A DNA stretch of 64,000 bases, taken from assembly GCA_033439295.1 (NCBI GenBank), contig JAVTLE010000001.1, positions 1,674,001 to 1,738,000 on the forward strand, given 5' to 3'. Positions within the stretch are counted from its first letter, which is position 1; each line of letters begins with the position of its first letter. Below the pieces are notes generated by a model that was not told the origin of the DNA, searched no databases, and worked only from the letters and a program-made list of their open reading frames with translations. Below, one piece after another: positions 9,152-49,935 of this stretch. This stretch comes from Deuterostichococcus epilithicus. Lineage: Eukaryota > Chlorophyta > Trebouxiophyceae > Prasiolales > Stichococcaceae. The position numbers and the translations under genes are program-made.

Positions 9152-9184
<33 letters not shown>

Positions 9185-17458: not shown

Positions 17459-17540
17459 TGTTGAAAGAGGGCTTAATGAGCCGGACAACAACCCTATGCG
17501 CATAGGGTTGTTGTCCGGCTCATTAAGCCCTCTTTCAACA
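17459..17540. repeat. Perfect 82-bp palindrome, copy P1
   Basis: Two 41-bp arms with no spacer. The ends are TGTTGAAAGAGG and its complement, and the centre is CCCTATGC|GCATAGGG. Identical in sequence to P2 and P3; one additional base pair (T/A) extends the symmetry here. Confidence 0.97.
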
Positions 17541-17922
17541 AAACATGTAGACTGAGGTCTCAGGTTCGACTCCCAGAAGGGGCAACTGACAGAAGGGCAG
17601 GCATCTATGCGATAGGGCACTAGTCGGCCTGGCAAGCTGATGGGGGCCTCTGCAGCCGACTGGGAACGGTAACTGGGAGATGAACGGTGGCTACACCACC
17701 TAAAGACCCCAGTCTACATGTTTTGTTGAAAGAGGGCTTAATGAGCCGGACAACAACCCTATGCGCATAGGGTTGTTGTCCGGCTCATTAAGCCCTCTTT
17801 CAACAGGCTGCAGAGGCCCCCATCAGCTTGCCAGGCCGACTAGTGCCCTATCGCATAGATGCCTGCCCTTCTGTCAGTTGCCCCTTCTGGGAGTCGAACC
17901 TGAGACCTCAGTCTACATGTTT
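17541..17922. repeat. 117-bp perfect inverted repeat between palindromes, with a tRNA-like B box
   Basis: 17541-17657 and 17806-17922 are exact reverse complements. Together with the palindromes they give the order P1-Q-unique-P2-Q'-P3, a 199-bp perfect inverted repeat (17459-17657 against 17806-18004). Q contains GGTTCGACTCC, an exact match to the RNA polymerase III B-box consensus (GGTTCGANTCC). No full tRNA cloverleaf or A box at the right spacing was found, so a tRNA-derived SINE relic is only a possibility. Confidence 0.85.
17724..17805. repeat. Perfect 82-bp palindrome, copy P2
   Basis: Identical to P1. It is preceded by 14 bp (CAGTCTACATGTTT) that also precede P3, and followed directly by the inverted copy of the 117-bp segment. 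Confidence 0.97.
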
Positions 17923-18004
17923 TGTTGAAAGAGGGCTTAATGAGCCGGACAACAACCCTATGCGCATAGGGTTGTTGTCCGGCTCATTAAGCCCTCTTTC
18001 AACA
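17923..18004. repeat. Perfect 82-bp palindrome, copy P3
   Basis: Identical to P1 and P2. Sequence to its right (GCTCTCAGCGG) is unrelated to the flanks of the other copies. Confidence 0.97.
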
Positions 18005-25081: not shown

Positions 25082-28000
25082 ATGATGCGAGGCATGCAGC
25101 TTTCCCTGGTCGTGATGGTGCTTCTGCTGGCGATGGCAGTGGCCGATTGCCAGACACTGGCGCAGGATAGCAAGGTGAGTCGGTTTTGACCGTCCAGCCC
25201 ATGTGTCCTGAAACCCACGAGAGATGTCTTGTGGAACGTCACCTGACGGAGTTGGCATGTCAACAGCCATTAGTCGCAAGCCAGCAACTGCGCAATTTTG
25301 GTGGCGCTTGTTGTGCACATCCTTGCTCTTCCGCAGACCCGAACGCAGCCAAAGGCTCCTAGGTGTGCCAATAGATCTTTTGGCCTAGACCTGAATGAGC
25401 AGGCGATCATGCATTGAGAACTGCATGCATGAGGGTATCCATTAGACACTTTTGAACCGACAACTTGTTGCCCCAATGTGCTGATGCACCCTTGTTTGCG
25501 TGCATGTGCAGGTCCGCAGCTTGGATGCACACAGCCAGGGCAACCGACGCGCCCTGAAGCAGACGACTCCCAGGAAACCGCCTCCAAAGCAGCCTCCTCC
25601 AGTACAACCGCCCCCACTGCTCAATCGCACGCAACCCCAACTGGTGAACAAGAACCCACCACCGCCGACCGACGCCAGCAAGTCTCCGCCGCCAGCACGC
25701 CCCCCGCCGACCAGGTCCCCGCCGCCAGCACACCCACCGCCGGCCGCCGCCAGCAAGTCCCCGCCGCCGGCACGCCCACCGCCGACCGCCGCCAGCAGCA
25801 AGGCCCCACCGCCAGCACGCCCACCGCCGGCCGCCGCCAGCAAGTCCCCGCCGCCGGCAGGCCCACCGCCGACTGCCGCCAGCAGCAAGTCCCCACCGCC
25901 AGCACGCCCACCGCCCGCCGCCGCCAGCAAGTCCCCGCCGCCAGCACGCCCACCGCCCGCCGCCGCCAGCAAGTCCCCGCCGCCGGCACGCCCACCGCCG
26001 GCACGCCCACCGCCGGCCGCCGCCAGCAAATCCCCGCCGCCGGCAGGCCCACCGCCGACCGCCGCCAGCAGCAAGTCCCCACCTGTACNACGCCCACCGC
26101 CGGCCGCCGCCAGCAAGTCCCCGCCGCCAGCACGCCCACCGCCCGCCGCCGCCAGCAAGTCCCCGCCGCCGGCACGCCCACCGCCGGCAGGCCCACCGCC
26201 GGCCGCCGCTGGCAAGTCCCCGCCGCCAGCAGGCCCACCGCCGGCCGCCGCCAGCAGCAAGTCCCCGCCGCCGGCAGGCCCACCGCCGGCCGCCGCCAGC
26301 AAGTCCCCGCCGCCAGCACCCCCACCCCCCGCCGCCGCCAGCAAGTCCCCGCCGCCGGCACGCCCACCGCCGGCAGGCCCACCGCCGGCCGCCGCTGGCA
26401 AGTCCCCGCCGCCAGCAGGCCCACCGCCGGCCGCCGCCAGCAGCAAGTCCCCGCCGCCAGCAGGCCCACCGCCGACTGCCGCCGCCAGCAAGTCCCCGCC
26501 GCCAGCAGGCCCACCGCCGGCCGCCGCTGGCAAGTCCTCGCCGCCGGCACGCCCACCGCCGGCAGGCCCACCGCCGGCCGCCGCCAGCAGCAAGTCCCCG
26601 CCGCCAGCAGGCCCACCGCCGGCCGCCGCCAGCAACTCCACACCGCCAGCAGGCCCACCGCCGGCCGCCGCTGGCAAGTCCCCGCCGCCAGCAAGCCCAT
26701 TACCCGCCACCGCCAGCAAGTCCCCGCCGCCAGCACTGCGGCCGCCATCGCCGCCGATGGTGCCGCGACCCCCCAGTCTAGGCACTTTCGGCAGATCACC
26801 TTCGCCTCCACCATCTCCAATTATCCGGCGGCCGCCTCCACCGCGCTCTGAGCCGCCGCCGCCACTGGAGTGCTCATCCGGCTTCCTCCCAGTCGTTGAC
26901 CCCCTCACCGATGAAGCTTCCTGTCAGGACTGCCCTGCAGGCTACGTGGCGGTGCGCTTCAGGCTCTATCGTTTGATGCATTGTCTGCCCTGCCTTCAAC
27001 GGCAGCACTACACGACATGCTCACCAACGATGGCCACAAGAAGGTGCACGCATAGCACTGCGTGTGTTGTTGCCTACGATGTCTGTAGTCTGTTCGTTTT
27101 TATCATGCGCAGCCATCCGGATCCACAAACTGTACATCGTGCAAGGAACAAGGCGGCTGGGCGAGCTCCATCTATGCCGACGAGTGCACACAGTGTCCTC
27201 CAACCAGCGCTTGCCCAGTGTGTGACCCAATACGAGGCTGCATTGCCACGCAGCCAGGTTTCGCTCTGACGTCTTACGGCGATGTACAAGGTATGCACTC
27301 AAGTCAAGTGCATGGCTGGAATATGAGCCACTTTTTGTGCCATGTGCTGAGCCCTCATGCAATGATGTCTAAACTCCCTTTGCAGATTATCGACCCACAT
27401 CAACCGTTGTTGAAGCCTTGTCGTCTTGCGGCGCAGACTGTTCCGTCAGCAGCGGCTTCACGACCGTGGCAAATGCGACCAGCTGCTCTTCCTGCTACTG
27501 GTGCTTTCAAGGCTGCACTAATGCTACAGCTGGATGTTCAGCGTCGATTGGATGCTGGGCCGGCTCGACGTACAATGCCACCTCGAAAAACTGCGAAGGT
27601 ACAGCTTCTGCTACATTGCTCCACGTGCGACAGCATATCGTGACGGGCGGCTCGCCCTGCCTCGTGGTGTCACACCAGCTTTTGAGCGCTCCCGCCTTGT
27701 TCTGAGGACAAGTGGTGCTTGTGCAGAGTGTCCCCTCGGCACAAAGGGTAATGGGCTCAACGGCCCAGGAGCAAAGTGAGCTCTGTGCAAGAGAAACGAT
27801 GCCTCTTCTTGCTAACACATGCATATGGCACTCATCTGCTATGCTTGTGTTACAGCGCCATCGTTCAAGCTTGGGCAGCACCTGCGCAGGTGCCTCAAGT
27901 GCACTGCGGCCCATTGCGCTTCATGCTCTGGTGACGTCAGTGTATGCGAGTCTTGCGCTGCTGGCTACGGAATGACCTTTGATGCCAATGGCAACCCCAC

Positions 28001-31000
28001 TGGCTCTTGTACACGTGCGCGCGTCGCCGTTCCTTGCCTGGCTACGTCCGCTTGCTTGATGCGCCACAAACGCATGCCTTTCCGTTTTTCCTGTGCAAGC
28101 CCGTTCAACAGCAAATTTGCAAAACCTGTGCTCCCGGTCGAATCATGCCAACCTGCTTGACAGCACCGAGCTGAGCGTCACTTGCAGTGTGTCCAAAGAA
28201 CAAGGCAAACTACGCGGGGTCGTCTCAGGCATGCCAAGGTGCGCTTTACTTTGCGATCTTGCGTCGTTGATTGGCCTGGCTGTGATGATCCATATCCATG
28301 CGATTGTGACCATTCTCTCTCTGAGAACACAGATTGCACAGCATCCGAAGGCTACACACTGGGTACTGGCTCAGGTGATTCAGGTTTTTGCACCCACTGT
28401 TCACTACGGTTTCTGCTCGGCCTGTAACAGAAGTTGCGAATAATGGCACGTTGCTAAGTCTGCAATCCTTTTCTTCATTGGGCCGGAATGTGTATTTGCA
28501 GCCGAGTGCCTCTCCTGCGGATACCAATGCGACGGAGCCTGCGGAGCAAATGGCTGCACTTCCTGCGCGCCATCGTTCACGCTTGTTCAGGGCACTTGCA
28601 AAGGTCTTCCCTTGACAATTGCAAACCCTGGGGCTTCTCGCACGTCCACACAAGCCTGCCAAGAATGTCTGCGGCATGAAGCCATCAAAGCCTGCTCCTG
28701 ACAGCAATTGCAGCCCAGCAACTAAAGTCATGCATGTGCAAATTACGCAGAGTGCACAGCAAGAACTTTCAAGGGTACCAGCGGCACACAGGCGTGCACC
28801 CCGTTCCCCACAAATTGCATCGACTATGCCTATGGTTATGGCTGCACACGTTGCGCACCAGGCTACGGACCCTCCAACGACAAAAAGCAGTGCCTCGGTG
28901 AGCACCTCAATATCATGATGCCCTACCCTTGATTGACATGTGATTGTGCCATGCAATGTTCGCGATCAGCTTGAGAACGGTTCAATTACACTGTATGCAG
29001 CCTGCCAACCATCAAGATTCTCCGACAATGGCTACTCTTGCTCAAGTGGGCCTTCCGGCATTTCCTCCATTCCTCCACTCATGAAGACGCGTCAGCACAT
29101 GTGCTCAAGGATGGTTTCCTTGCATCGTCCATGATGATAAGTGTCGAGATGTGGAGGCTCATAATAGACCTGGTTTGCAATTCAGGTTGTGATGCCAATG
29201 CGTTTTCGTCCACCACCAAAGCGACTGCATGCTTGGCGTGCACTGGCTGGTGCGTGCCCCTTCTGATGTGCTCATCAGTTATCTAATGCATGATCTCACT
29301 GCCCATCGAAACAAACCCATCGATCATGAATCTGCAGCTCCGAAGGTCTCTGCAGCCCGACCACGGGCTGCTCAGCTTGCGTGGCTCCGTTTGTGCTCAG
29401 CACCACCACGAAAGCCTGCTACCGTGCGCCCTTCCAGCGCTCATTGAACCGGCTTATTACAGCTGTTTGCTTCTGTGAAAAGCCCCTCCGCATGATCAAA
29501 CCCCTGCAGCGCATTAGTTTTAGACCAGCTGTTTGCTGCACATGCTCACGTTTTGTTGCATCTGTGTTGCTGCACTGCAGACACCACAGCCAAGACTTGG
29601 CAAAGACTTATTCAAGCTTGCAGTGTCGTGTTTGTCATGATGCAGAGGCAAACAGTGGCGGTGTTGGGCCTGACATGGGAAATTTGACAGGAATACCCAT
29701 CGCACTGCCGCCCAATGTCCGTGTTGGTGGCATCTACAAGTCCTATGATGGTGCGTTCGCATTGGTGGATTCTAGGGGAAGACGTTCAAGACGTCTTCTA
29801 AACGACAGATGAAAGACGACCATTCAGATGCTTTGTTGACAACTTTGTTGAGATCTGAGCTCGGTTTGAACTTCGTGCAGTGTCGGGCTGCCGCTCAAAT
29901 TTGGAACCTTCAACTGTGTTCCCTGATGACCCGTTTGTGGACTGCTCCAATGGAGCTTGCCGCCAGACTTTTGGGCTTGGCTACAGCGTACGTGCCACCA
30001 ATTGCACTCTCCGTGAAGCCTTGTGCTGGGCTTACTCCACATCGTCGTTGCCTGTGATGATGCCTCTGCCATGCAAAGAGTGCTCTGCATTGGTTTGGTC
30101 TCCTGGACTCTCCTGTGTCTCATGCAGGTACAAGGTTGCCTTGTCATGTTTGTCACGTCGCCGGCCGTAAACACCGGCCGGAAGCTGCAACAGGTTCCAA
30201 GTGAGTTGTTCGCCAGCCAATCACTGTAATGATCTTTGCAGATGAGGAGGCTTGACGAAAATCTCTGTTCAACCTGGGGAACATTGCACAAATATACACG
30301 ATACGCGCCCCGGTAGCGCAACAACATTCACTGTGCACGCTGTACGAATGATACTGCCATGATGGCATCCCCTTTTCCCTTACACGCAGGCACGTGCACA
30401 AATCTGCAGCGGTTCGTTCCGTCGGGTGCATCTGCAATTGTCGGCAATGTGGACGCCTGGATCTCTCCCGATTTTTACGGCCGCATGCAGGCAAGCCACA
30501 GCCTGATAAAGCCTCAGAGCCTGCCTTGGCTCAGTAATGTTGCCACTATGAGACTCCCACCCTCAGCAGAAACAAGTTCGCCCCTCTGCGCCACAGGCCT
30601 TGAACAATTTGGCCCTCAAGTACGGCGTCACATTTGAGATCGTCAGCAGTGCACACAGCAGCGCCACCGTTTCAAATGGGGCAAAACCCGGAAACCATCA
30701 AGCTGGACATGCTGTTGATCTAACCCTGGTGCGCTGTGCCTTGGGTGTGTGAGAGTATAATGCCCGTTTTGCACAATCATTCCGTTTTTGGCTGTCTTTC
30801 ACCATGAAGGCATGCACCGCTTGCCCACCCACGCAGTAGTGTGCATTGCCTGCTCCACAGTCGGAGCACGAACGTTGAAAGTACTGGGATCTCCTTTGCA
30901 CAGATTTCCAAGGATGGAGATCGATGGTCAAACCCTTGCGATCTGGGGAGATACTATCTATGGGACAAACTGGGTTACACCAGCTCTTTCCCAGCAAGCA

Positions 31001-34000
31001 TCAAGAACTTTGTAACCCGCACCTCCACTGTCGGCGTGCGATGGGGCGGTGAGCACATGCATTTCACATGTGTAACATATGTGCATATACCCGACTCCAT
31101 CTGTTACGCTTTGCATTGCAAGGGTGATCGAGTGCTAGGTGTGGTACCTCTCGTCTTTTCAGCTTCGTTCTCATGAACAACGAGCAGGTACATTTGTTGA
31201 CAACACCCTCTACAACGAAACGGATCAAACATGGCGCTGTGGAGGTATGCTCGGCCAGAACTCGGCTTGGCTCAATCAGGCTGTTGGAGTTCTGCCTCGA
31301 TCAGGATTGTCGCATGCATTCATGGGTCCAGCAACACCTGATGAAATGCAATCTTATCAAGCACGATGCTGACCGTGCGTGACGCAGGAGGTCCTGACGA
31401 AAATCATGTGAGTGGCAACCTGTGCGAACCCCAAGCGATTGCATTCTCAGCATGCATTGATGTATGCGCATGCCCCCACTCTAACAGCGTGTGTGCTATG
31501 ATACTGCAGGCCTGGGTGAGAGCTTGCATTGCACTGTCCAATCCCTGTTGCAAGCTTCTCCCGTCAGATGGTCGAAGCTCGAGACTCTCTTTGGCGTTTC
31601 AACCTGCAGCATGGATGACATCGTCTCACGTCCAAGCCTGGGTTGTGTTTGCAGACGCACTTCGATGACAGCTTCAACATTAAAGACGCACCGGGTTTTG
31701 CTGAAGATGTCCCTAAATTTCAAGCGGATCTAGCAAGTGTCTGCAGTGACACTTGCACCAACATCGCCATCACTGGCCCCAACTGGACACCGTCAATGTG
31801 CAGCAGCTTTGGCGGCCACAAGCCACCCTACAAAGGTCCATTGGTAGCCGCACTCACTGATGTAGCTCAATCTTGCAAGCATGAAGCAAGGCAGGCCACG
31901 GGCTCCTGAATGCATGGTCGTCAGTGAAAATGTTGTGTCCCAAAATGCAGCGATGCCACAGGCGCTAAGCCTCCCTGCGGGAACAACCATCCAACAGCTC
32001 TCCGCATCGGGCGAGGATCCGCTGCAGAATGGGCTTTTGTTGTTCCCCATTGACCTTGAGATGCACCCAGGTCGGTGGGAACCTTAGCCGAGATGTGGTC
32101 TACAGCAATGATGCGACATAGACCAGAGTTCATTTATACGTGTCGATGACGAACAGTGATGCACTCCATTCAGCATGGTAACATGACCGTGACCCTGCAG
32201 ATGGCTCGCTTGGAGTCGTGGCCGCTGGGCAGGGGTATGCGAGTGGCACCGTATTTGGCCATACCGATGCAGATGAGGGCGATGCCCTCCCCCAGCGCCG
32301 GCTGATGCAGGTATGTGACTGGGTTGTTCTATCATCGTGTCACCATAAATGTGGTTTCCATCCTTTAGAGCGTCTGATGCGCTCGCATTGCATCACGGCA
32401 TTTCAAACCCAATATCAGCCAATCACACAAGCAAGTTCAAGTTGTTGACTTTCTTCTACTTTTTTTGTGAGTAGGTGCAGCCTCCCAGCAACCCTACGTC
32501 GTCCGCATTGCTGCCAGTACGATCACAACAGCTGCCCAGTGGCGACACAGAATATCGATACGAGCTGCAGGTATGCGACTCAGGGTCTGCCGTGAGAGCA
32601 CACGTATTAAATCGAGTTCCCGAACGCCGTATATAGAGCATGGCAGAATTGTTCCTTCCTGTTCTCACGACCCCGGACCGTGTACATTCCTTCTGCGAAG
32701 GTCAATGCATTCGGCATCAACTCCCGTCGCCCATATACATATGTGTCAAGGGCAATTTTGGGTCCTGTTACCAAGACACCCACGCTGCTGACCTTCCTTT
32801 CCATTTTGAAGGGTGAGTCACCGGAACAGCGTGCTTGTTGTTGTCCCTGCTTTGCGTGTGCCCCTGTTTGCTCCCGACTGATGTGCTGTGTCATTGCTTG
32901 AGTGTCCGTAGGATAGCTCATCTGCAGGAAGCAGTAAACCTGTTTGTCTATACATCTAAAGCATCACGTTGGCCGACATGCAGGTCGGTGTCTGGCATAC
33001 GACAATTCGGATGGATATTCTTACACAACTGACCGGTCACAGTTGGAACAACACATGTACTACCTACAAGCTGCTCTGTGGTCTGCATCGGACGGAGGAG
33101 GTCCGACGCCTGATGACCGAACCAGCATACTCGAGCACACGATGACATGCACAGGTCGAACTGTCGTCAGCGAGTCTTTGCTGCCGGCAAGCCCACCACC
33201 AATTGCTGCCGGCAAGATCCCGCCGGCAGCAGGCCCACCACCGACCGCCAGCAAGTACCCGCCGCCATCAGGCTCACCGCCAGCAGGCCCACCGCCCGCC
33301 GCCGCCAGCGGCTCCCCGCCGCCAGCAGGCCCACCGCCCTCCGCCGCCAGCAGGTCCCCGCCGCCGGCACGCCCACCGCCGGCCGCCGCTGGCAAGTCCC
33401 CGCCGCCAGCAGGCCCACCGCCGGCCGCCGCTGGCAAGTCCCCGCCGCCAGCAGGCCCACCGCCGGCCGCCGCTGGCAAGTCCCCGCCGCCAGCAGGCCC
33501 ACCGCCGGCCGCCGCCAGCAAGTCCCCGCCGCCGGCAGGCCCACCGCCGGCCGCGGCCAGCAACTCCACACCGCCAGCAGGCCCACCGCCGGCCGCCGCT
33601 GGCAATCCCCCACCGCCAGCAAGCCCATTACCCGCCACCGCCAGCAAGTCCCCGCCGCCAGCACTGCGGCCGCCATCGCCGCCGATGGTGCCGCGACCCC
33701 CCAGTCTAGGCACTTTCGGCAGATCACCTTCGCCTCCACCATCTCCAATTATCCGGCGGCCGCCTCCACCGCGCTCTGAGCCGCCGCCGCCACTGGAGTG
33801 CTCATCCGGCTTCCTCCCAGTCGTTGACCCCCTCACCGATGAAGCTTCCTGTCAGGACTGCCCTGCAGGCTACGTGGCGGTGCGCTTCAGGCTCTATCGT
33901 TTGATGCATTGTCTGCCCTGCCTTCAACGGCAGCACTACACGACATGCTCACCAACGATGGCCACAAGAAGGTGCACGCATAGCACTGCGTGTGTTGTTG

Positions 34001-37000
34001 CCTACGATGTCTGTAGTCTGTTCGTTTTTATCATGCGCAGCCATCCGGATCCACAAACTGTACATCGTGCAAGGAACAAGGCGGCTGGGCGAGCTCCATC
34101 TATGCCGACGAGTGCACACAGTGTCCTCCAACCAGCGCTTGCCCAGTGTGTGACCCAATACGAGGCTGCATTGCCACGCAGCCAGGTTTCGCTCTGACGT
34201 CTTACGGCGATGTACAAGGTATGCACTCAAGTCAAGTGCATGGCTGGAATATGAGCCACTTTTTGTGCCATGTGCTGAGCCCTCATGCAATGATGTCTAA
34301 ACTCCCTTTGCAGATTATCGACCCACATCAACCGTTGTTGAAGCCTTGTCGTCTTGCGGCGCAGACTGTTCCGTCAGCAGCGGCTTCACGACCGTGGCAA
34401 ATGCGACCAGCTGCTCTTCCTGCTACTGGTGCTTTCAAGGCTGCACTAATGCTACAGCTGGATGTTCAGCGTCGATTGGATGCTGGGCCGGCTCGACGTA
34501 CAATGCCACCTCGAAAAACTGCGAAGGTACAGCTTCTGCTACATTGCTCCACGTGCGACAGCATATCGTGACGGGCGGCTCGCCCTGCCTCGTGGTGTCA
34601 CACCAGCTTTTGAGCGCTCCCGCCTTGTTCTGAGGACAAGTGGTGCTCGTGCAGAGTGTCCCCTCGGCACAAAGGGTAATGGGCTCAACGGCCCAGGAGC
34701 AAAGTGAGCTCTGTGCAAGAGAAACGATGCCTCTTCTTGCTAACACATGCATATGGCACTCATCTGCTATGCTTGTGTTACAGCGCCATCGTTCAAGCTT
34801 GGGCAGCACCTGCGCAGGTGCCTCAAGTGCACTGCGGCCCATTGCGCTTCATGCTCTGGTGACGTCAGTGTATGCGAGTCTTGCGCTGCTGGCTACGGAA
34901 TGACCTTTGATGCCAATGGCAACCCCACTGGCTCTTGTACACGTGCGCGCGTCGCCGTTCCTTGCCTGGCTACGTCCGCTTGCTTGATGCGCCACAAACG
35001 CATGCCTTTCCGTTTTTCCTGTGCAAGCCCGTTCAACAGCAAATTTGCAAAACCTGTGCTCCCGGTCGAATCATGCCAACCTGCTTGACAGCACCGAGCT
35101 GAGCGTCACTTGCAGTGTGTCCAAAGAACAAGGCAAACTACGCGGGGTCGTCTCAGGCATGCCAAGGTGCGCTTTACTTTGCGATCTTGCGTCGTTGATT
35201 GGCCTGGCTGTGACGAGAATCCATGCGATTGTGACCATTCTCTCGCTGAGTACACAGATTGCACAGCATCCGAAGGCTACACACTGGGTACTGGCTCAGG
35301 TGATTCAGGTTTTTGCACCCACTGTTCACTACGGTTTCTGCTCGGCCTGTAACAGAAGTTGCGAATAATGGCACGTTGCTAAGTCTGCAATCCTTTTCTT
35401 CATTGGGCCGGAATGTGTATTTGCAGCCGAGTGCCTCTCCTGCGGATACCAATGCGACGGAGCCTGCGGAGCAAATGGCTGCACTTCCTGCGCGCCATCG
35501 TTCACGCTTGTTCAGGGCACTTGCAAAGGTCTTCCCTTGACAATTGCAAACCCGGGGGCTTCTCGCACGTCCACACAAGCCTGCCAAGAATGTCTGCGGC
35601 ATGAAGCCATCAAAGCCTGCTCCTGACAGCAATTGCAGCCCAGCAACTAAAGTCATGCATGTGCAAATTACGCAGAGTGCACAGCAAGAACTTTCAAGGG
35701 TACCAGCGGCACACAGGCGTGCACCCCGTTCCCCACAAATTGCATCGACTATGCCTATGGTTATGGCTGCACACGTTGCGCACCAGGCTACGGACCCTCC
35801 AACGACAAAAAGCAGTGCCTCGGTGAGCACCTCAATATCATGATGCCCTACCCTTGATTGACATGTGATTGTGCCATGCAATGTTCGCGATCAGCTTGAG
35901 AACGGTTCAATTACACTGTATGCAGCCTGCCAACCATCAAGATTCTCCGACAATGGCTACTCTTGCTCAAGTGGGCCTTCCGGCATTTCCTCCATTCCTC
36001 CACTCATGAAGACGCGTCAGCACATGTGCTCAAGGATGGTTTCCTTGCATCGTCCATGATGATAAGTGTCGAGATGTGGAGGCTCATAATAGACCTGGTT
36101 TGCAATTCAGGTTGTGATGCCAATGCGTTTTCGTCCACCACCAAAGCGACTGCATGCTTGGCGTGCACTGGCTGGTGCGTGCCCCTTCTGATGTGCTCAT
36201 CAGTTATCTAATGCATGATCTCACTGCCCATCGAAACAAACCCATCGATCATGAATCTGCAGCTCCGAAGGTCTCTGCAGCCCGACCACGGGCTGCTCAG
36301 CTTGCGTGGCTCCGTTTGTGCTCAGCACCACCACGAAAGCCTGCTACCGTGCGCCCTTCCAGCGCTCATTGAACCGGCTTATTACAGCTGTTTGCTTCTG
36401 TGAAAAGCCCCTCCGCATGATCAAACCCCTGCAGCGCATTAGTTTTAGACCAGCTGTTTGCTGCACATGCTCACGTTTTGTTGCATCTGTGTTGCTGCAC
36501 TGCAGACACCACAGCCAAGACTTGGCAAAGACTTATTCAAGCTTGCAGTGTCGTGTTTGTCATGATGCAGAGGCAAACAGTGGCGGTGTTGGGCCTGACA
36601 TGGGAAATTTGACAGGAATACCCATCGCACTGCCGCCCAATGTCCGTGTTGGTGGCATCTACAAGTCCTATGATGGTGCGTTCGCATTGGTGGATTCTAG
36701 GGGAAGACGTTCAAGACGTCTTCTAAACGACAGATGAAAGACGACCATTCAGATGCTTTGTTGACAACTTTGTTGAGATCTGAGCTCGGTTTGAACTTCG
36801 TGCAGTGTCGGGCTGCCGCTCAAATTTGGAACCTTCAACTGTGTTCCCTGATGACCCGTTTGTGGACTGCTCCAATGGAGCTTGCCGCCAGACTTTTGGG
36901 CTTGGCTACAGCGTACGTGCCACCAATTGCACTCTCCGTGAAGCCTTGTGCTGGGCTTACTCCACATCGTCGTTGCCTGTGATGATGCCTCTGCCATGCA

Positions 37001-40000
37001 AAGAGTGCTCTGCATTGGTTTGGTCTCCTGGACTCTCCTGTGTCTCATGCAGGTACAAGGTTGCCTTGTCATGTTTGTCACGTCGCCGGCCGTAAACACC
37101 GGCCGGAAGCTGCAACAGGTTCCAAGTGAGTTGTTCGCCAGCCAATCACTGTAATGATCTTTGCAGATGAGGAGGCTTGACGAAAATCTCTGTTCAACCT
37201 GGGGAACATTGCACAAATATACACGATACGCGCCCCGGTAGCGCAACAACATTCACTGTGCACGCTGTACGAATGATACTGCCATGATGGCATCCCCTTT
37301 TCCCTTACACGCAGGCACGTGCACAAATCTGCAGCGGTTCGTTCCGTCGGGTGCATCTGCAATTGTCGGCAATGTGGACGCCTGGATCTCTCCCGATTTT
37401 TACGGCCGCATGCAGGCAAGCCACAGCCTGATAAAGCCTCAGAGCCTGCCTTGGCTCAGTAATGTTGCCACTATGAGACTCCCACCCTCAGCAGAAACAA
37501 GTTCGCCCCTCTGCGCCACAGGCCTTGAACAATTTGGCCCTCAAGTACGGCGTCACATTTGAGATCGTCAGCAGTGCACACAGCAGCGCCACCGTTTCAA
37601 ATGGGGCAAAACCCGGAAACCATCAAGCTGGACATGCTGTTGATCTAACCCTGGTGCGCTGTGCCTTGGGTGTGTGAGAGTATAATGCCCGTTTTGCACA
37701 ATCATTCCGTTTTTGGCTGTCTTTCACCATGAAGGCATGCACCGCTTGCCCACCCACGCAGTAGTGTGCATTGCCTGCTCCACAGTCGGAGCACGAACGT
37801 TGAAAGTACTGGGATCTCCTTTGCACAGATTTCCAAGGATGGAGATCGATGGTCAAACCCTTGCGATCTGGGGAGATACTATCTATGGGACAAACTGGGT
37901 TACACCAGCTCTTTCCCAGCAAGCATCAAGAACTTTGTAACCCGCACCTCCACTGTCGGCGTGCGATGGGGCGGTGAGCACATGCATTTCACATGTGTAA
38001 CATATGTGCATATACCCAACTCCATCTGTTACGCTTTGCATTGCAAGGGTGATCGAGTGCTAGGTGTGGTACCTCTCGTCTTTTCAGCTTCGTTCTCATG
38101 AACAACGAGCAGGTACATTTGTTGACAACACCCTCTACAACGAAACGGATCAAACATGGCGCTGTGGAGGTATGCTCGGCCAGAACTCGGCTTGGCTCAA
38201 TCAGGCTGTTGGAGTTCTGCCTCGATCAGGATTGTCGCATGCATTCATGGGTCCAGCAACACCTGATGAAATGCAATCTTATCAAGCACGATGCTGACCG
38301 TGCGTGACGCAGGAGGTCCTGACGAAAATCATGTGAGTGGCAACCTGTGCGAACCCCAAGCGATTGCATTCTCAGCATGCATTGATGTATGCGCATGCCC
38401 CCACTCTAACAGCGTGTGTGCTATGATACTGCAGGCCTGGGTGAGAGCTTGCATTGCACTGTCCAATCCCTGTTGCAAGCTTCTCCCGTCAGATGGTCGA
38501 AGCTCGAGACTCTCTTTGGCGTTTCAACCTGCAGCATGGATGACATCGTCTCACGTCCAAGCCTGGGTTGTGTTTGCAGACGCACTTCGATGACAGCTTC
38601 AACATTAAAGACGCACCGGGTTTTGCTGAAGATGTCCCTAAATTTCAAGCGGATCTAGCAAGTGTCTGCAGTGAAACTTGCACCAACATCGCCATCACTG
38701 GCCCCAACTGGACACCGTCAATGTGCAGCAGCTTTGGCGGCCACAAGCCACCCTACAAAGGTCCATTGGTAGCCGCACTCACTGATGTAGCTCAATCTTG
38801 CAAGCATGAAGCAAGGCAGGCCACGGGCTCCTGAATGCATGGTCGTCAGTGAAAATGTTGTGTCCCAAAATGCAGCGATGCCACAGGCGCTAAGCCTCCC
38901 TGCGGGAACAACCATCCAACAGCTCTCCGCATCGGGCGAGGATCCGCTGCAGAATGGGCTTTTGTTGTTCCCCATTGACCTTGAGATGCACCCAGGTCGG
39001 TGGGAACCTTAGCCGAGATGTGGTCTACAGCAATGATGCGACATAGACCAGAGTTCATTTATACGTGTCGATGACGAACAGTGATGCACTCCATTCAGCA
39101 TGGTAACATGACCGTGACCCTGCAGATGGCTCGCTTGGAGTCGTGGCCGCTGGGCAGGGGTATGCGAGTGGCACCGTATTTGGCCATACCGATGCAGATG
39201 AGGGCGATGCCCTCCCCCAGCGCCGGCTGATGCAGGTATGTGACTGGGTTGTTCTATCATCGTGTCACCATAAATGTGGTTTCCATCCTTTAGAGCGTCT
39301 GATGCGCTCGCATTGCATCACGGCATTTCAAACCCAATATCAGCCAATCACACAAGCAAGTTCAAGTTGTTGACTTTCTTCTACTTTTTTTGTGAGTAGG
39401 TGCAGCCTCCCAGCAACCCTACGTCGTCCGCATTGCTGCCAGTACGATCACAACAGCTGCCCAGTGGCGACACAGAATATCGATACGAGCTGCAGGTATG
39501 CGACTCAGGGTCTGCCGTGAGAGCACACGTATTAAATCGAGTTCCCGAACGCCGTATATAGAGCATGGCAGAATTGTTCCTTCCTGTTCTCACGACCCCG
39601 GACCGTGTACATTCCTTCTGCGAAGGTCAATGCATTCGGCATCAACTCCCGTCGCCCATATACATATGTGTCAAGGGCAATTTTGGGTCCTGTTACCAAG
39701 ACACCCACGCTGCTGACCTTCCTTTCCATTTTGAAGGGTGAGTCACCGGAACAGCGTGCTTGTTGTTGTCCCTGCTTTGCGTGTGCCCCTGTTTGCTCCC
39801 GACTGATGTGCTGTGTCATTGCTTGAGTGTCCGTAGGATAGCTCATCTGCAGGAAGCAGTAAACCTGTTTGTCTATACATCTAAAGCATCACGTTGGCCG
39901 ACATGCAGGTCGGTGTCTGGCATACGACAATTCGGATGGATATTCTTACACAACTGACCGGTCACAGTTGGAACAACACATGTACTACCTACAAGCTGCT

Positions 40001-43000
40001 CTGTGGTCTGCATCGGACGGAGGAGGTCCGACGCCTGATGACCGAACCAGCATACTCGAGCACACGATGACATGCACAGGTCGAACTGTCGTCAGCGAGT
40101 CTTTGCTGCCGGCAAGCCCACCACCAATTGCTGCCGGCAAGATCCCGCCGGCAGCAGGCCCACCACCGACCGCCAGCAAGTACCCGCCGCCATCAGGCTC
40201 ACCGCCAGCAGGCCCACCGCCCGCCGCCGCCAGCGGCTCCCCGCCGCCAGCAGGCCCACCGCCCTCCGCCGCCAGCAGGTCCCCGCCGCCGGCACGCCCA
40301 CCGCCGGCCGCCGCTGGCAAGTCCCCGCCGCCAGCAGGCCCACCGCCGGCCGCCGCTGGCAAGTCCCCGCCGCCAGCAGGCCCACCGCCGGCCGCCGCTG
40401 GCAAGTCCCCGCCGCCAGCAGGCCCACCGCCGGCCGCCGCCAGCAAGTCCCCGCCGCCGGCAGGCCCACCGCCGGCCGCGGCCAGCAACTCCACACCGCC
40501 AGCAGGCCCACCGCCGGCCGCCGCTGGCAATCCCCCACCGCCAGCAAGCCCATTACCCGCCACCGCCAGCAAGTCCCCGCCGCCAGCACTGCGGCCGCCA
40601 TCGCCGCCGATGGTGCCGCGACCCCCCAGTCTAGGCACTTTCGGCAGATCACCTTCGCCTCCACCATCTCCAATTATCCGGCGGCCGCCTCCACCGCGCT
40701 CTGAGCCGCCGCCGCCACTGGAGTGCTCATCCGGCTTCCTCCCAGTCGTTGACCCCCTCACCGATGAAGCTTCCTGTCAGGACTGCCCTGCAGGCTACGT
40801 GGCGGTGCGCTTCAGGCTCTATCGTTTGATGCATTGTCTGCCCTGCCTTCAACGGCAGCACTACACGACATGCTCACCAACGATGGCCACAAGAAGGTGC
40901 ACGCATAGCACTGCGTGTGTTGTTGCCTACGATGTCTGTAGTCTGTTCGTTTTTATCATGCGCAGCCATCCGGATCCACAAACTGTACATCGTGCAAGGA
41001 ACAAGGCGGCTGGGCGAGCTCCATCTATGCCGACGAGTGCACACAGTGTCCTCCAACCAGCGCTTGCCCAGTGTGTGACCCAATACGAGGCTGCATTGCC
41101 ACGCAGCCAGGTTTCGCTCTGACGTCTTACGGCGATGTACAAGGTATGCACTCAAGTCAAGTGCATGGCTGGAATATGAGCCACTTTTTGTGCCATGTGC
41201 TGAGCCCTCATGCAATGATGTCTAAACTCCCTTTGCAGATTATCGACCCACATCAACCGTTGTTGAAGCCTTGTCGTCTTGCGGCGCAGACTGTTCCGTC
41301 AGCAGCGGCTTCACGACCGTGGCAAATGCGACCAGCTGCTCTTCCTGCTACTGGTGCTTTCAAGGCTGCACTAATGCTACAGCTGGATGTTCAGCGTCGA
41401 TTGGATGCTGGGCCGGCTCGACGTACAATGCCACGTCGAAAAACTGCGAAGGTACAGCTTCTGCTACATTGCTCCACGTGCGACAGCATATCGTGACGGG
41501 CGGCTCGCCCTGCCTCGTGGTGTCACACCAGCTTTTGAGCGCTCCCGCCTTGTTCTGAGGACAAGTGGTGCTCGTGCAGAGTGTCCCCTCGGCACAAAGG
41601 GTAATGGGCTCAACGGCCCAGGAGCAAAGTGAGCTCTGTGCAAGAGAAACGATGCCTCTTCTTGCTAACACATGCATATGGCACTCATCTGCTATGCTTG
41701 TGTTACAGCGCCATCGTTCAAGCTTGGGCAGCACCTGCGCAGGTGCCTCAAGTGCACTGCGGCCCATTGCGCTTCATGCTCTGGTGACGTCAGTGTATGC
41801 GAGTCTTGCGCTGCTGGCTACGGAATGACCTTTGATGCCAATGGCAACCCCACTGGCTCTTGTACACGTGCGCGCGTCGCCGTTCCTTGCCTGGCTACGT
41901 CCGCTTGCTTGATGCGCCACAAACGCATGCCTTTCCGTTTTTCCTGTGCAAGCCCGTTCAACAGCAAATTTGCAAAACCTGTGCTCCCGGTCGAATCATG
42001 CCAACCTGCTTGACAGCACCGAGCTGAGCGTCACTTGCAGTGTGTCCAAAGAACAAGGCAAACTACGCGGGGTCGTCTCAGGCATGCCAAGGTGCGCTTT
42101 ACTTTGCGATCTTGCGTCGTTGATTGGCCTGGCTGTGACGAGAATCCATGCGATTGTGACCATTCTCTCGCTGAGTACACAGATTGCACAGCATCCGAAG
42201 GCTACACACTGGGTACTGGCTCAGGTGATTCAGGTTTTTGCACCCACTGTTCACTACGGTTTCTGCTCGGCCTGTAACAGAAGTTGCGAATAATGGCACG
42301 TTGCTAAGTCTGCAATCCTTTTCTTCATTGGGCCGGAATGTGTATTTGCAGCCGAGTGCCTCTCCTGCGGATACCAATGCGACGGAGCCTGCGGAGCAAA
42401 TGGCTGCACTTCCTGCGCGCCATCGTTCACGCTTGTTCAGGGCACTTGCAAAGGTCTTCCCTTGACAATTGCAAACCCTGGGGCTTCTCGCACGTCCACA
42501 CAAGCCTGCCAAGAATGTCTGCGGCATGAAGCCATCAAAGCCTGCTCCTGACAGCAATTGCAGCCCAGCAACTAAAGTCATGCATGTGCAAATTACGCAG
42601 AGTGCACAGCAAGAACTTTCAAGGGTACCAGCGGCACACAGGCGTGCACCCCGTTCCCCACAAATTGCATCGACTATGCCTATGGTTATGGCTGCACACG
42701 TTGCGCACCAGGCTACGGACCCTCCAACGACAAAAAGCAGTGCCTCGGTGAGCACCTCAATATCATGATGCCCTACCCTTGATTGACATGTGATTGTGCC
42801 ATGCAATGTTCGCGATCAGCTTGAGAACGGTTCAATTACACTGTATGCAGCCTGCCAACCATCAAGATTCTCCGACAATGGCTACTCTTGCTCAAGTGGG
42901 CCTTCCGGCATTTCCTCCATTCCTCCACTCATGAAGACGCGTCAGCACATGTGCTCAAGGATGGTTTCCTTGCATCGTCCATGATGATAAGTGTCGAGAT

Positions 43001-46000
43001 GTGGAGGCTCATAATAGACCTGGTTTGCAATTCAGGTTGTGATGCCAATGCGTTTTCGTCCACCACCAAAGCGACTGCATGCTTGGCGTGCACTGGCTGG
43101 TGCGTGCCCCTTCTGATGTGCTCATCAGTTATCTAATGCATGATCTCACTGCCCATCGAAACAAACCCATCGATCATGAATCTGCAGCTCCGAAGGTCTC
43201 TGCAGCCCGACCACGGGCTGCTCAGCTTGCGTGGCTCCGTTTGTGCTCAGCACCACCACGAAAGCCTGCTACCGTGCGCCCTTCCAGCGCTCATTGAACC
43301 GGCTTATTACAGCTGTTTGCTTCTGTGAAAAGCCCCTCCGCATGATCAAACCCCTGCAGCGCATTAGTTTTAGACCAGCTGTTTGCTGCACATGCTCACG
43401 TTTTGTTGCATCTGTGTTGCTGCACTGCAGACACCACAGCCAACACTTGGCAAAGACTTATTCAAGCTTGCAGTGTCGTGTTTGTCATGATGCAGAGGCA
43501 AACAGTGGCGGTGTTGGGCCTGACATGGGAAATTTGACAGGAATACCCATCGCACTGCCGCCCAATGTCCGTGTTGGTGGCATCTACAAGTCCTATGATG
43601 GTGCGTTCGCATTGGTGGATTCTAGGGGAAGACGTTCAAGACGTCTTCTAAACGACAGATGAAAGACGACCATTCAGATGCTTTGTTGACAACTTTGTTG
43701 AGATCTGAGCTCGGTTTGAACTTCGTGCAGTGTCGGGCTGCCGCTCAAATTTGGACCCTTCAACTGTGTTCCCTGATGACCCGTTTGTGGACTGCTCCAA
43801 TGGAGCTTGCCGCCAGACTTTTGGGCTTGGCTACAGCGTACGTGCCACCAATTGCACTCTCCGTGAAGCCTTGTGCTGGGCTTACTCCACATCGTCGTTG
43901 CCTGTGATGATGCCTCTGCCATGCAAAGATTGCTCTGCATTGGTTTGGTCTCCTGGACTCTCCTGTGTCTCATGCAGGTACAAGGTTGCCTTGTCATGTT
44001 TGTCACGTCGCCGGCCGTAAACACCGGCCGGAAGCTGCAACAGGTTCCAAGTGAGTTGTTCGCCAGCCAATCACTGTAATGATCTTTGCAGATGAGGAGG
44101 CTTGACGAAAATCTCTGTTCAACCTGGGGAACATTGCACAAATATACACGATACGCGCCCCGGTAGCGCAACAACATTCACTGTGCACGCTGTACGAATG
44201 ATACTGCCATGATGGCATCCCCTTTTCCCTTACACGCAGGCACGTGCACAAATCTGCAGCGGTTCGTTCCGTCGGGTGCATCTGCAATTGTCGGCAATGT
44301 GGACGCCTGGATCTCTCCCGATTTTTACGGCCGCATGCAGGCAAGCCACAGCCTGATAAAGCCTCAGAGCCTGCCTTGGCTCAGTAATGTTGCCACTATG
44401 AGACTCCCACCCTCAGCAGAAACAAGTTCGCCCCTCTGCGCCACAGGCCTTGAACAATTTGGCCCTCAAGTACGGCGTCACATTTGAGATCGTCAGCAGT
44501 GCACACAGCAGCGCCACCGTTTCAAATGGGGCAAAACCCGGAAACCATCAAGCTGGACATGCTGTTGATCTAACCCTGGTGCGCTGTGCCTTGGGTGTGT
44601 GAGAGTATAATGCCCGTTTTGCACAATCATTCCGTTTTTGGCTGTCTTTCACCATGAAGGCATGCACCGCTTGCCCACCCACGCAGTAGTGTGCATTGCC
44701 TGCTCCACAGTCGGAGCACGAACGTTGAAAGTACTGGGATCTCCTTTGCACAGATTTCCAAGGATGGAGATCGATGGTCAAACCCTTGCGATCTGGGGAG
44801 ATACTATCTATGGGACAAACTGGGTTACACCAGCTCTTTCCCAGCAAGCATCAAGAACTTTGTAACCCGCACCTCCACTGTCGGCGTGCGATGGGGCGGT
44901 GAGCACATGCATTTCACATGTGTAACATATGTGCATATACCCAACTCCATCTGTTACGCTTTGCATTGCAAGGGTGATCGAGTGCTAGGTGTGGTACCTC
45001 TCGTCTTTTCAGCTTCGTTCTCATGAACAACGAGCAGGTACATTTGTTGACAACACCCTCTACAACGAAACGGATCAAACATGGCGCTGTGGAGGTATGC
45101 TCGGCCAGAACTCGGCTTGGCTCAATCAGGCTGTTGGAGTTCTGCCTCGATCAGGATTGTCGCATGCATTCATGGGTCCAGCAACACCTGATGAAATGCA
45201 ATCTTATCAAGCACGATGCTGACCGTGCGTGACGCAGGAGGTCCTGACGAAAATCATGTGAGTGGCAACCTGTGCGAACCCCAAGCGATTGCATTCTCAG
45301 CATGCATTGATGTATGCGCATGCCCCCACTCTAACAGCGTGTGTGCTATGATACTGCAGGCCTGGGTGAGAGCTTGCATTGCACTGTCCAATCCCTGTTG
45401 CAAGCTTCTCCCGTCAGATGGTCGAAGCTCGAGACTCTCTTTGGCGTTTCAACCTGCAGCATGGATGACATCGTCTCACGTCCAAGCCTGGGTTGTGTTT
45501 GCAGACGCACTTCGATGACAGCTTCAACATTAAAGACGCACCGGGTTTTGCTGAAGATGTCCCTAAATTTCAAGCGGATCTAGCAAGTGTCTGCAGTGAA
45601 ACTTGCACCAACATCGCCATCACTGGCCCCAACTGGACACCGTCAATGTGCAGCAGCTTTGGCGGCCACAAGCCACCCTACAAAGGTCCATTGGTAGCCG
45701 CACTCACTGATGTAGCTCAATCTTGCAAGCATGAAGCAAGGCAGGCCACGGGCTCCTGAATGCATGGTCGTCAGTGAAAATGTTGTGTCCCAAAATGCAG
45801 CGATGCCACAGGCGCTAAGCCTCCCTGCGGGAACAACCATCCAACAGCTCTCCGCATCGGGCGAGGATCCGCTGCAGAATGGGCTTTTGTTGTTCCCCAT
45901 TGACCTTGAGATGCACCCAGGTCGGTGGGAACCTTAGCCGAGATGTGGTCTACAGCAATGATGCGACATAGACCAGAGTTCATTTATACGTGTCGATGAC

Positions 46001-47002
46001 GAACAGTGATGCACTCCATTCAGCATGGTAACATGACCGTGACCCTGCAGATGGCTCGCTTGGAGTCGTGGCCGCTGGGCAGGGGTATGCGAGTGGCACC
46101 GTATTTGGCCATACCGATGCAGATGAGGGTGATGCCCTCCCCCAGCGCCGGCTGATGCAGGTATGTGACTGGGTTGTTCTATCATCGTGTCATCATAAAT
46201 GTGGTTTCCATCCTTTAGAGCGTCTGATGCGCTCGCATTGCATCACGGCATTTCAAACCCAATATCAGCCAATCACACAAGCAAGTTCAAGTTGTTGACT
46301 TTCTTCTACTTTTTTGTGAGTAGGTGCAGCCTCCCAGCAACCCTACGTCGTCCGCATTGCTGCCAGTACGATCACAACAGCTGCCCAGTGGCGACACAGA
46401 ATATCGATACGAGCTGCAGGTATGCGACTCAGGGTCTGCCGTGAGAGCACACATATTAAATCGAGTTCCCAAACGCCGTATATAGAGCATGGCAGAATTG
46501 TTCCTTCCTGTTCTCACGACCCCGGACCGTGTACATTCCTTCTGCGAAGGTCAATGCATTCGGCATCAACTCCCGTCGCCCATATACATATGTGTCAAGG
46601 GCAATTTTGGGTCCTGTTACCAAGACACCCACGCTGCTGACCTTCCTTTCCATTTTGAAGGGTGAGTCACCGGAACAGCGTGCTTGTTGTTGTCCCTGCT
46701 TCGCGTGTGCCCCTGTTTGCTCCCGACTGATGTGCTGTGTCATTGCTTGAGTGTCCGTAGGATAGCTCATCTGCAGGAAGCAGTAAACCTGTTTGTCTAT
46801 ACATCTAAAGCATCACGTTGGCCGACATGCAGGTCGGTGTCTGGCATACGACAACTCGGATGGATATTCTTACACAACTGACCGGTCGCAGTTGGAACAA
46901 CACATGTACTACCTACAAGCTGCTCTGTGGTCTGCATCGGACGGAGGAGGTCCGACGCCTGATGACCGAACCAGCATACTCGAGCACACGATGGCATGTT
47001 GA
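25082..47002 (+). CDS. Gene B: fused array of three Pro-rich/Cys-rich/M15-peptidase units behind one signal peptide
   Basis: Exon 1 (25082-25174) is a 31-codon signal peptide (MMRGMQ, hydrophobic core, AVADCQ). Exon 2 (25512-26951) has RRALKQ, a long KSPPP-RPPP stalk and CQDCPAGYVA. Exons 3 (27113-27290) and 4 (27386-27598) carry Cys modules with the same lengths and phases as in gene A. The M15 core follows: GNHQAGHAVDL (near 30700), STVGVRWG (near 31040) and GPDENH (near 31400), keeping all three zinc ligands. The last exon of unit 1 (about 32990-33145, ending SILEHTMTC) has no stop; it reads straight into a new SPPP stalk. Unit 2 joins unit 3 the same way near 40070; only unit 3 ends, at EHTMAC-stop (47002). 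I estimate about 3,000 residues. Alternatives are separate transcripts with internal promoters, or an assembly artefact. Confidence 0.72.
25512..33146 (+). repeat. Array unit 1 of gene B
   Basis: Has the longest stalk (about 25560-26870, roughly twice that of units 2 and 3, with an N at 26089). From about 26700 onwards it matches units 2 and 3 almost base for base, introns included. A unit-specific 3-bp insertion near 28285 (Asp-Asp-Pro-Tyr in place of Asp-Glu-Asn) keeps frame. Confidence 0.9.
33147..40071 (+). repeat. Array unit 2 of gene B
   Basis: 6,925 bp. It starts at the junction GACATGCACAGGTCG, which lies inside an open frame, and goes directly into a short stalk (about 33180-33800). 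It has no signal peptide and no copy of intron 1. It differs from unit 3 at only about a dozen positions by eye. Confidence 0.92.
40072..47002 (+). repeat. Array unit 3 of gene B (terminal unit)
   Basis: Same junction and stalk as unit 2, but it ends with a stop codon and a 3' flank like that of gene A. Most differences from unit 2 lie in its last 900 bp (46.1-46.9 kb), including a one-base change in a T tract near 46310. Confidence 0.92.
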
Positions 47003-48154: not shown

Positions 48155-48170
48155 CCTAAACCCTAAACCC
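48155..48170 (+). promoter_or_regulatory. Telo-box-like motif (CCTAAACCCTAAACCC) upstream of gene C
   Basis: Two plant-type telomere repeats 122 bp before the predicted ATG. In plants, telo boxes (AAACCCTAA) are promoter elements of growth-related genes. The aligned position in the C relic (about 20090) has no such motif. A regulatory role is inferred. Confidence 0.45.
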
Positions 48171-48291: not shown

Positions 48292-49935
48292 ATGACGACC
48301 TCGCGGCACGACGTCACGCCAGGCCGAAGTTCTGTCAGATCCCCACTGCCTTGGCGCACACCCGACAAGCAGCTTGGGGGGCGCATGCTGCTGACTCAGT
48401 CGAGAAGCAGAGGTCTGCTCGCACGAACGTCAGCGGGCGACGCGAGCCTGTCGCCGGCGCCCCCGCAGCTCTCGCAGCTGGGCCACTCGGCGCCAGCCCC
48501 AGCAGCGGCCAGCGGCGCTCTTGCACGTGCAGCAAGCGGCGTCCAATTGAGCCAAAGCTCCCTCAGCTTGCGCGGCGTTCAATGCGATGCGCCTGGAGCC
48601 GCCACGCGGAACACGCTGCAAGGCAAGTCGCACTTCCGGCGGTAAAGCAGTTTCCAGCCTTGGGAGCGTTTTCGAGGGCTCCACATTGCACCTCAACACG
48701 CCCCGAGCGGCGAGGCTTGACTGGAGCTCCTGGCGTATCACCTTGTCTCGCAGGAGGCAGCGGCACAATGTCAATGTTCATCCCGCGGCCGTGCGCTGGT
48801 GCATCCAGCGCAGCAGGCGGCGGCGTCAGCCTGCGNCGAGGCGCATCCGCCGCACCAGCGCGCGCACCCNNCGGCCGCGCAGCCTGGGACCCCATGGCCG
48901 GCGGCAGGCACATGGCAGGCAGCGCGGCGGCGCAGGGCTCAGGTGAGTTTGTACGGCGATCGATGGGCTGACTGGAGGTCGCAGTCGGCGACTGGCACTA
49001 CTGATTCGCAATGCCCAACCGGTTGCATTCGACTGCAGCAGGGAGTCTTCCTGGACGAATCCTGAGCAGGAACCCTGCGCTGCGCAGGCATGCTGAAGGT
49101 CGTCGGCGGCGGATTGGAAGCCGGCTGGCAGCTGCGGAGGGGCGTGCTGCCGGCGTCGCGGCAGGTGCAAATCCAGGGCCACGTGCTGTCGACAACGATT
49201 GGACTCGGATCCTTCCCGCAAGCCCTGAGCGCATTGCTGAGGACCAGGCGCCACAGAGATTGGAGCCTTGTGGCCTCTGATCGCAGGCCAGGGCGCAGCA
49301 TCTGCAGCGGGCCCAGCCGCCGGCGGCTGCACATCAGACGAATCAGCAGCCAGGCGGCGCAGTGGCGCTGGCTGCGCTGCGGCGGGAGCTGCGGCAGCTG
49401 GATCCTGCGCTCGGTGTCGCGCTGCCGCCGCAGGCCGCGGCCAGAGAGGACGCCTCCGGAGCGGCGCCGGCGCCTCGGCTGCGCTCGCGCGACAGCATCC
49501 GGCAGAGCCTGGCGCAGCTGCAGCGCCACCAGCAGCAGGCGCAGCAGATGCGGGTGAGCTGCACTGCGGTGTCAGGCTCCACGTGCTGGCCAGGCTGCAA
49601 TGGGCCATGACTCGTGCGCTTTGCATAGATCTCGTCCTTCAAATTGCGAACAGCGTGCCTGGCGTCCTGCGCAGGGCGCGGCAGCACCAGCGGCAGCGGC
49701 CGGGCAGGCGGTTGCGGATGACCTCAGTTGGCAGCAGCGGCAAGGTGACGGCGCCGTGGTGCCCTCGTTACCACATCCACAGCCGATTGTCCGCAGCGTC
49801 AGCAGTGGACAGCCGCGCGGCGCTGGCAAGGCGTCGGACAGGCGGTCTTACGGCATCTCGCGGCAGCTGCAGCAGCTGGCGCTGCTGCAGAGCAAGGGCT
49901 CGAGGTTGGCCGCCAAGACGATGCTGCAAGCATGA
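48292..49935 (+). CDS. Gene C: unrecognised low-complexity protein
   Basis: No family was recognised. The first exon starts at 48292 (MTTSRHDV) and is Ser/Arg/Ala-rich, like an organelle-targeting peptide; it could end at CTGCAAG before GCAAGT, a GC donor near 48626. A middle exon with MSMFIPRPCAG near 48770 holds three N positions, so its frame cannot be confirmed. Exon 49289-49553 runs from an acceptor at ATCGCAG and encodes an Ala/Gln-rich, probably helical stretch (LAALRRELRQLDPAL and SLAQLQRHQQQAQQM). The last exon (from about 49673) ends ...LAAKTMLQA-stop at 49935, after a Gln/Leu-rich helix. The downstream exons look coding by frame consistency only. A broken copy lies at 20020-20745. 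Confidence 0.45.

Follow-up and report, generated by a model that had tools for sequence, protein, structure and literature searches.

Does the array at 25082-47002 encode one secreted protein with three peptidase domains, and how could such a gene have come about? The array lies in a 64,000-nucleotide stretch of the green alga Deuterostichococcus epilithicus (contig JAVTLE010000001.1, positions 1,674,001 to 1,738,000), here called the window, whose first letter is position 1 of the coordinates below. The genome context is a 46.8 Mb assembly of 21 contigs, in which intron-rich genes and SPPP-rich proteins are present.

The three-unit gene and its single-unit paralogue

Three tandem units of about 6.9 kb each occupy 25082-47002 as direct repeats with a period of 6925-6928 bp, and in a BLAST comparison 26255-40074 matched 33168-46998 at 99.2% identity, stalk included. 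The spliced model of this three-unit gene runs from an ATG at 25082 to a TGA at 47000-47002 and combines 80 exons into a chain of 3,601 residues free of internal stops, so that the three stalk-plus-unit cycles in one open chain, as put forward in the original prediction, are present in the assembled sequence. Introns start with GT in 76 cases and with GC in three and end with AG in 79 of 79, counts that are partly by construction, since exon edges were taken from a comparison of gene A, the upstream paralogue, with unit 3 and then refined by hand by reading splice sites, with canonical, in-frame sites as selection criteria. Independent support for the model is that corresponding splice sites serve gene A as well as every unit.

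All parts of the gene lie on the plus strand. Exon 1 (25082-25174) encodes a start that by eye resembles a signal peptide (MMRGMQLSLVVMVLLLAMAVADCQ), in sequence and model the sole one in the three-unit gene, and exon 2 (25512-26951) encodes the long Pro-rich SPPP stalk of unit 1 and the first Cys-rich residues (LECSSG from 26865). In the model, the Cys-rich exons 3-14 (27113-29750) and a linker of exons 15-16 (29881-30200) precede the M15-like exons 17-19 (30390-31069), which contain HQAGHAVD and RWGGEHMHF and are followed by the modeled C-terminal exons 20-27 (31188-32812). A read-through exon (32984-33879) then connects the last exon of unit 1 in frame to the stalk of unit 2, whose Cys-rich, M15-like (37315-37994), and C-terminal exons are modeled at 34041-39737. 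Likewise, a second modeled read-through exon (39909-40804) fuses the last unit 2 exon in frame to the unit 3 stalk, with Cys-rich, M15-like (44240-44919), and C-terminal exons modeled at 40966-46661 and a last exon (46833-47002) in which the stop TGA is kept after SILEHTMAC. A signal peptide had been expected in the first unit only, and this agrees with the signal-peptide-like exon 25082-25174 and with the joins, where no second signal exon is possible because the last exon passes directly into the next stalk.

The unit cores comprise 897 amino acids each and differ from one another by 1-3 residues, and ahead of the Cys-rich region there are 482 amino acids in unit 1 (counting the signal region) and 214 in each of the other two. 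Proline makes up 38% of the first 480 residues, and the stalk repeats are 42-45 nt long. HQAGHAVD is found at residues 1024, 2135, and 3246 of the chain and GEHMHF at 1083, 2194, and 3305; one frame of 3601 codons thus holds three copies of both motifs, which predicts a multidomain chain whose domains are peptidase-like only. Isolated Ns are present in the window at 7552, 26089, 48836, and 48870-48871, two of them within the GC-rich stalks of gene A (7552) and unit 1 (26089).

Gene A (6500-14015, plus strand) is a single-unit paralogue of 28 exons and 1,176 amino acids with its own signal-peptide-like start and its own stop, and its introns are of the GT-AG or GC-AG type. Compared with the array gene, its exon columns are 83% identical and its intron columns 59%. 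Past the stalk, 733 of the 898 encoded residues that could be aligned are shared with unit 3, with dN 0.106 and dS 0.541 (NG86) or dN 0.109 and dS 0.464 (YN00), corresponding to a dN/dS of 0.20-0.24. Exon identity above intron identity, combined with low dN/dS, is the sequence signature of a constrained gene family. Own-genome searches returned at least 28 matches of the M15 part, at least 20 of the C-terminal part, and at least 37 of the Cys-rich part; the matches listed all lie in C1:1681731-1720999, and among them these three parts hit nothing but gene A and the array units. Within gene A, intron 18 (11620-11799) separates the two zinc-motif exons, measures 180 nt, and has no in-frame stop, and its retention would add 60 residues between the zinc ligands; the counterpart in unit 1 contains an in-frame TGA.

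Identity of the M15-like domain and candidate substrates

How far the heads of the units can be called peptidases depends on short motifs. We take the zinc ligands of M15 peptidases to be the H and D of HxxGxAxD and the H of [DE]xxH, with the acidic residue of the latter acting as the base. HxxGxAxD, WGG, and [DE]xxH occur in this order in each unit and in gene A, a combined pattern seen in 1 of 300000 shuffles and shared with M15 peptidases such as VanX/DdpX, CwlK, and the phage T5 endolysin, as judged from a 30-row alignment of T5-endolysin relatives. HxxGxAxD was thus retained in each unit as had been claimed, but the second motif, given there as DxxH, is actually E-x-x-H (GGEHMHF). The DLTL and ExxHF stretches presumably resemble D-Ala-D-Ala dipeptidases (VanX, DdpX), a likeness backed for the unit by a single NCBIfam row at E 0.061.

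Few relatives were recovered outside the locus. Among 8000 scored candidates, none was homologous to the M15-plus-C-terminal part of one unit at E <= 0.001, and a two-row profile retrieved from 374 candidates one protein at E <= 10, P0001, which comprises 157 amino acids, originates from an 826-base NCBI contig, and is 89% identical over 21% of the query. P0001 represents a further version of the HxxGxAxD exon, one that differs from those in gene A and the units and shares their SSAHSS motif; therefore, a related gene exists in another record. In viral contigs, 30 pattern matches were obtained and 0 confirmed, and tblastn against phages gave 11 records with a best E of about 2, none of which carried an endolysin or M15 annotation.

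Alternatively, the domain might fall outside the M15 peptidases or be a catalytically inactive member of them, and the product would then be a structural glycoprotein of the wall bearing three globular heads. We consider this doubtful, yet it deserves serious attention, as several comparisons favor it. The best Pfam match of the unit, PF13539 (M15_4), had E 0.017 and 16.1 bits against a cut-off of 25, and PF08291 reached 12.5 against 23.2; in gene A, the corresponding values were E 0.019 and 16.0 bits for PF13539 and 12.7 for PF08291, also under cut-off. Searches of the genome exons gave 0 matches to PF01427 (E <= 0.001) and 0 to PF13539 (E <= 10). With solved structures, no M15 chain matched, five DD-transpeptidase rows appeared at E 0.16-0.38, and the profile search gave none at E <= 10. 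An hhalign comparison with a profile of 30 M15 proteins yielded a probability of 1.3% and a score of 19.25, exceeded by 5 of 100 shuffles, and the controls scored 12.05 (reversed profile) and 10.06 (C-terminal region). Gene A is without a peptidase or endolysin row in NCBIfam or PHROGs. Furthermore, G-x-R, invariant in 30 of 30 M15 rows, is replaced by S-x-H in gene A, the units, and P0001 in a hand alignment. The array units thereby differ from M15 peptidases, which are bacterial or phage proteins with G-x-R, and their overall similarity to these stays under the family cut-offs.

The motif order, rare among shuffles, nevertheless speaks against a merely structural head, as does the nature of the weak hits: the weak Pfam and NCBIfam rows of the unit are M15-type families, two of its four PHROGs rows are endolysins, and both weak Pfam rows of gene A are M15. 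In addition, hhalign set HxxGxAxD over the correct M15 columns. We therefore call the domain M15-like and use the peptidase label tentatively. Accepting an M15-like domain, the claim of one secreted three-peptidase protein is borne out in its open chain and its single signal-like start, both predicted from DNA, and its peptidase part holds at the level of motifs.

A secreted protein of the matrix or wall is suggested by the signal-like exon, the SPPP stalks, the Cys-rich repeats, and the M15-like head. No Pfam family matched the Cys-rich part of the unit at E <= 1, and that of gene A matched an ephrin-receptor-like family at E 0.0007, below cut-off. As the light-harvesting family gave 39 exon matches in the genome, the organism looks photosynthetic. 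The Ddl C-domain and the PBP transpeptidase had no genome match at E <= 0.001 in an exon-by-exon search, which can miss genes, and this makes the alga's own peptidoglycan a less likely substrate; bacterial walls or an algal glycoprotein might, on this slight indication, be likelier ones.

Joins, unit history, and copy number

Gene A and unit 3 end in SILEHTMMC and SILEHTMAC, respectively, each followed by a stop, with TGT-TGA at the matching place. Units 1 and 2 instead read SILEHTMTC-TGRTVVSESLLP into the following stalk, and the proposed junction, SILEHTMTC-TGRTVV-SESLLP in frame into the next Pro-rich stalk, reads as described at both joins. The two joins are identical base for base (33000-33900 and 39925-40825; 901 bp). 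Unit 1 remains homologous to unit 3 up to 33149, inside the final codon ahead of the stop: 33149 is G, as is 46998, and the first difference at the join is C at 33150 versus T at 46999. Units 1 and 2 thus lack the stop because the breakpoint fell at the last codon before it. Past the join, the Cys-rich region is reached without a stop only in the frame that is used, the other two stopping after 186 and 209 codons; with one of three frames open, the frame alone carries a chance prior of about one-third.

The segment following the join looks by eye like a degenerate stalk repeat. In a genome search that skipped simple repeats, its matches outside its two copies were at most 80% identical and no second source emerged; the segment copies no present stalk repeat that could be the 5' parent of the join. 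In 60-base comparisons, similarity of the join-side stalk to the unit 1 stalk rises from 67% to 100% near the stalk end. Placing the break at the acceptor of intron 1 (CATGTGCAG/GTC versus CATGCACAG/GTC) was considered and dropped, as the downstream exon sequence differs.

The three cores vary at 25 columns of about 6450, with unit 1 the odd one out in 11, unit 2 in one, and unit 3 in 13. Seven of the 25 are exonic and cause three amino acid changes. With gene A as the outgroup, derived states of unit 2 recur in unit 3 at four columns (28292, 28293, 31093, and 31750, of which 28292-28293 adjoin a gap within an intron whose alignment is loose) and in unit 1 at four others (29594, 29906, 32280, and 32460). 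Unit 1 has six private columns and unit 3 has seven, and four are without polarity, including 28629, the column in which unit 2 is odd. A single crossover would not account for unit 2, as sites 29594 and 29906 require further exchange. Unit 2 has derived sites in common with both neighbors and no more than one private site; this is compatible with recent unequal crossover, although an extra unit created in assembly would have much the same appearance.

This raises the main rival to the amplification history, namely that the copy number in the assembly is wrong: there might in truth be just units 1 and 3, linked by one join, with unit 2 an assembler mosaic, or the array might be longer or polymorphic. 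We consider this unlikely. The patchwork of unit 1 and unit 3 states in unit 2, with one private base among the 25 varying columns, would be accounted for in this way, and the identical stalks and joins of units 2 and 3 and the isolated Ns inside the stalks of gene A and unit 1 point in the same direction. However, repeats in assemblies are collapsed more frequently than expanded, and a recent crossover gives the same pattern in unit 2. Moreover, the 24 columns that distinguish units 1 and 3 require no fewer than two units and one read-through join.

A real array, in turn, might not make one protein: its transcript could stop near the joins or bypass them by splicing, or the second and third units could be silent passengers. 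Promoter and exon 1 are missing from these two units, and very long transcripts tend to end early, a general expectation that might hold here too. Judging by sequence, an acceptor-like CACAG/GTC at 33154/33155 fits the phase of the donor before the last exon, and its use would skip 171 nt (32984-33154) with the frame kept. On the other hand, the joins contain no in-frame stop, and TGTAA, the green-algal poly(A) signal, is absent from both join regions (33000-33800 and 39925-40725), whereas gene A and unit 3 have stops with TGTAA downstream of them, at 425 bp and 842 bp, respectively. Such outcomes appear improbable to us, and a single transcript is the preferred, predicted reading.

Proposed origin and relation to known proteins

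On balance, we lean toward in-frame tandem amplification of a single-unit gene into a gene for one secreted protein of 3,601 predicted residues. The starting point would have been a secreted gene resembling gene A, with signal peptide, Pro-rich stalk, Cys-rich region, M15-like domain, and C-terminal region. An internal tandem duplication with its 3' breakpoint at the last codon before the stop and its 5' breakpoint inside the stalk would have joined the ends in frame, producing a copy without promoter, signal peptide, and stop, and later unequal crossover or conversion between units could have added a third copy with the same join. Transcribed from the unit 1 promoter and spliced as a single 80-exon gene, the array would yield a secreted product with three near-identical peptidase-like units on extensin-like stalks. 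Any benefit of tripling might most simply be a gain in dosage or avidity. The suggestion of a processive or polyvalent wall enzyme found no evidence, and the near-identical, young units argue for amplification having preceded any division of labor; the other suggestion, a precursor cut into three parts, may also apply. Because the array is so young, its intact frame is weak evidence of selection. A stronger form of the proposal, which we regard as somewhat unlikely, would be a newborn tri-catalytic secreted enzyme made from one 80-exon transcript, with three active, near-identical M15-like units caught in the first few dozen mutations after amplification and perhaps a unit number that varies between strains through unequal crossover.

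Hydroxyproline-rich matrix proteins of green algae combine secreted SPPP-rich stalks with globular domains, some of them metallopeptidase domains; Volvox metalloproteinases (VMPs) and gametolysin belong to M11 and have one catalytic domain. We know of no stalk-plus-peptidase cycles among these proteins, and the multicatalytic peptidases known to us all have long-diverged domains. The claim that no M15 protein of this architecture has been described was probed by searches of the open-access literature for M15 in green algae or the chloroplast, which found nothing, a weak negative. Nothing was found on fused tandem duplicates, and broader searches gave nothing relevant among the papers listed. 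The closest parallels come from other peptidase families. Carboxypeptidase D (M14) is a single secretory-pathway polypeptide with three tandem metallopeptidase-like domains (PMC5683605). It is membrane-bound, and activity is predicted in its first two domains only. The array units differ from it in being nearly identical, M15-like, and placed on Pro-rich stalks. Similarly, polyserases 1-3 (S1) have two or three tandem peptidase domains per chain, with polyserase-1 cut into three and polyserase-2 remaining whole (PMC1435904). Polyserases are serine peptidases whose domains are diverged and partly inactive, unlike the near-identical array units. What sets the array apart from both systems is how young its units are, that stalks separate them, and that their head is M15-like; if expressed, the gene would add a new form to this kind of multicatalytic peptidase.

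If the preferred reading is true, the locus would show the birth of a multicatalytic protein, with duplicate units that are just 1-3 residues apart and the single-unit paralogue adjacent. The ingredients would be a break falling immediately ahead of a stop codon, a stalk whose repeats make joining tolerable, and unequal crossover that subsequently alters the number of copies, and the result would be a gene whose unit number could be compared across strains.

Further features were noted in the surroundings of the array. About 1.2 kb past the array gene, a short stretch resembling plant-type telomere repeats (CCTAAACCCTAAACCC) was seen at 48155-48170 by reading the sequence. At 17459-18004, nested inverted repeats have arms of 199, 102, and 82 nt that are 99-100% complementary; the 199-nt arm has at least 44 matches, on contigs C1, C4, C5, C6, and C12, and these dispersed matches indicate a dispersed repeat family of the foldback type. 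On the minus strand, 54920-59827 contains a gene for an AMP-binding enzyme, likely an acyl-CoA synthetase, with the AMP-binding domain in the open reading frame 59438-59827 and its C-terminal domain in 54920-55567, the two being assumed to belong to one gene.
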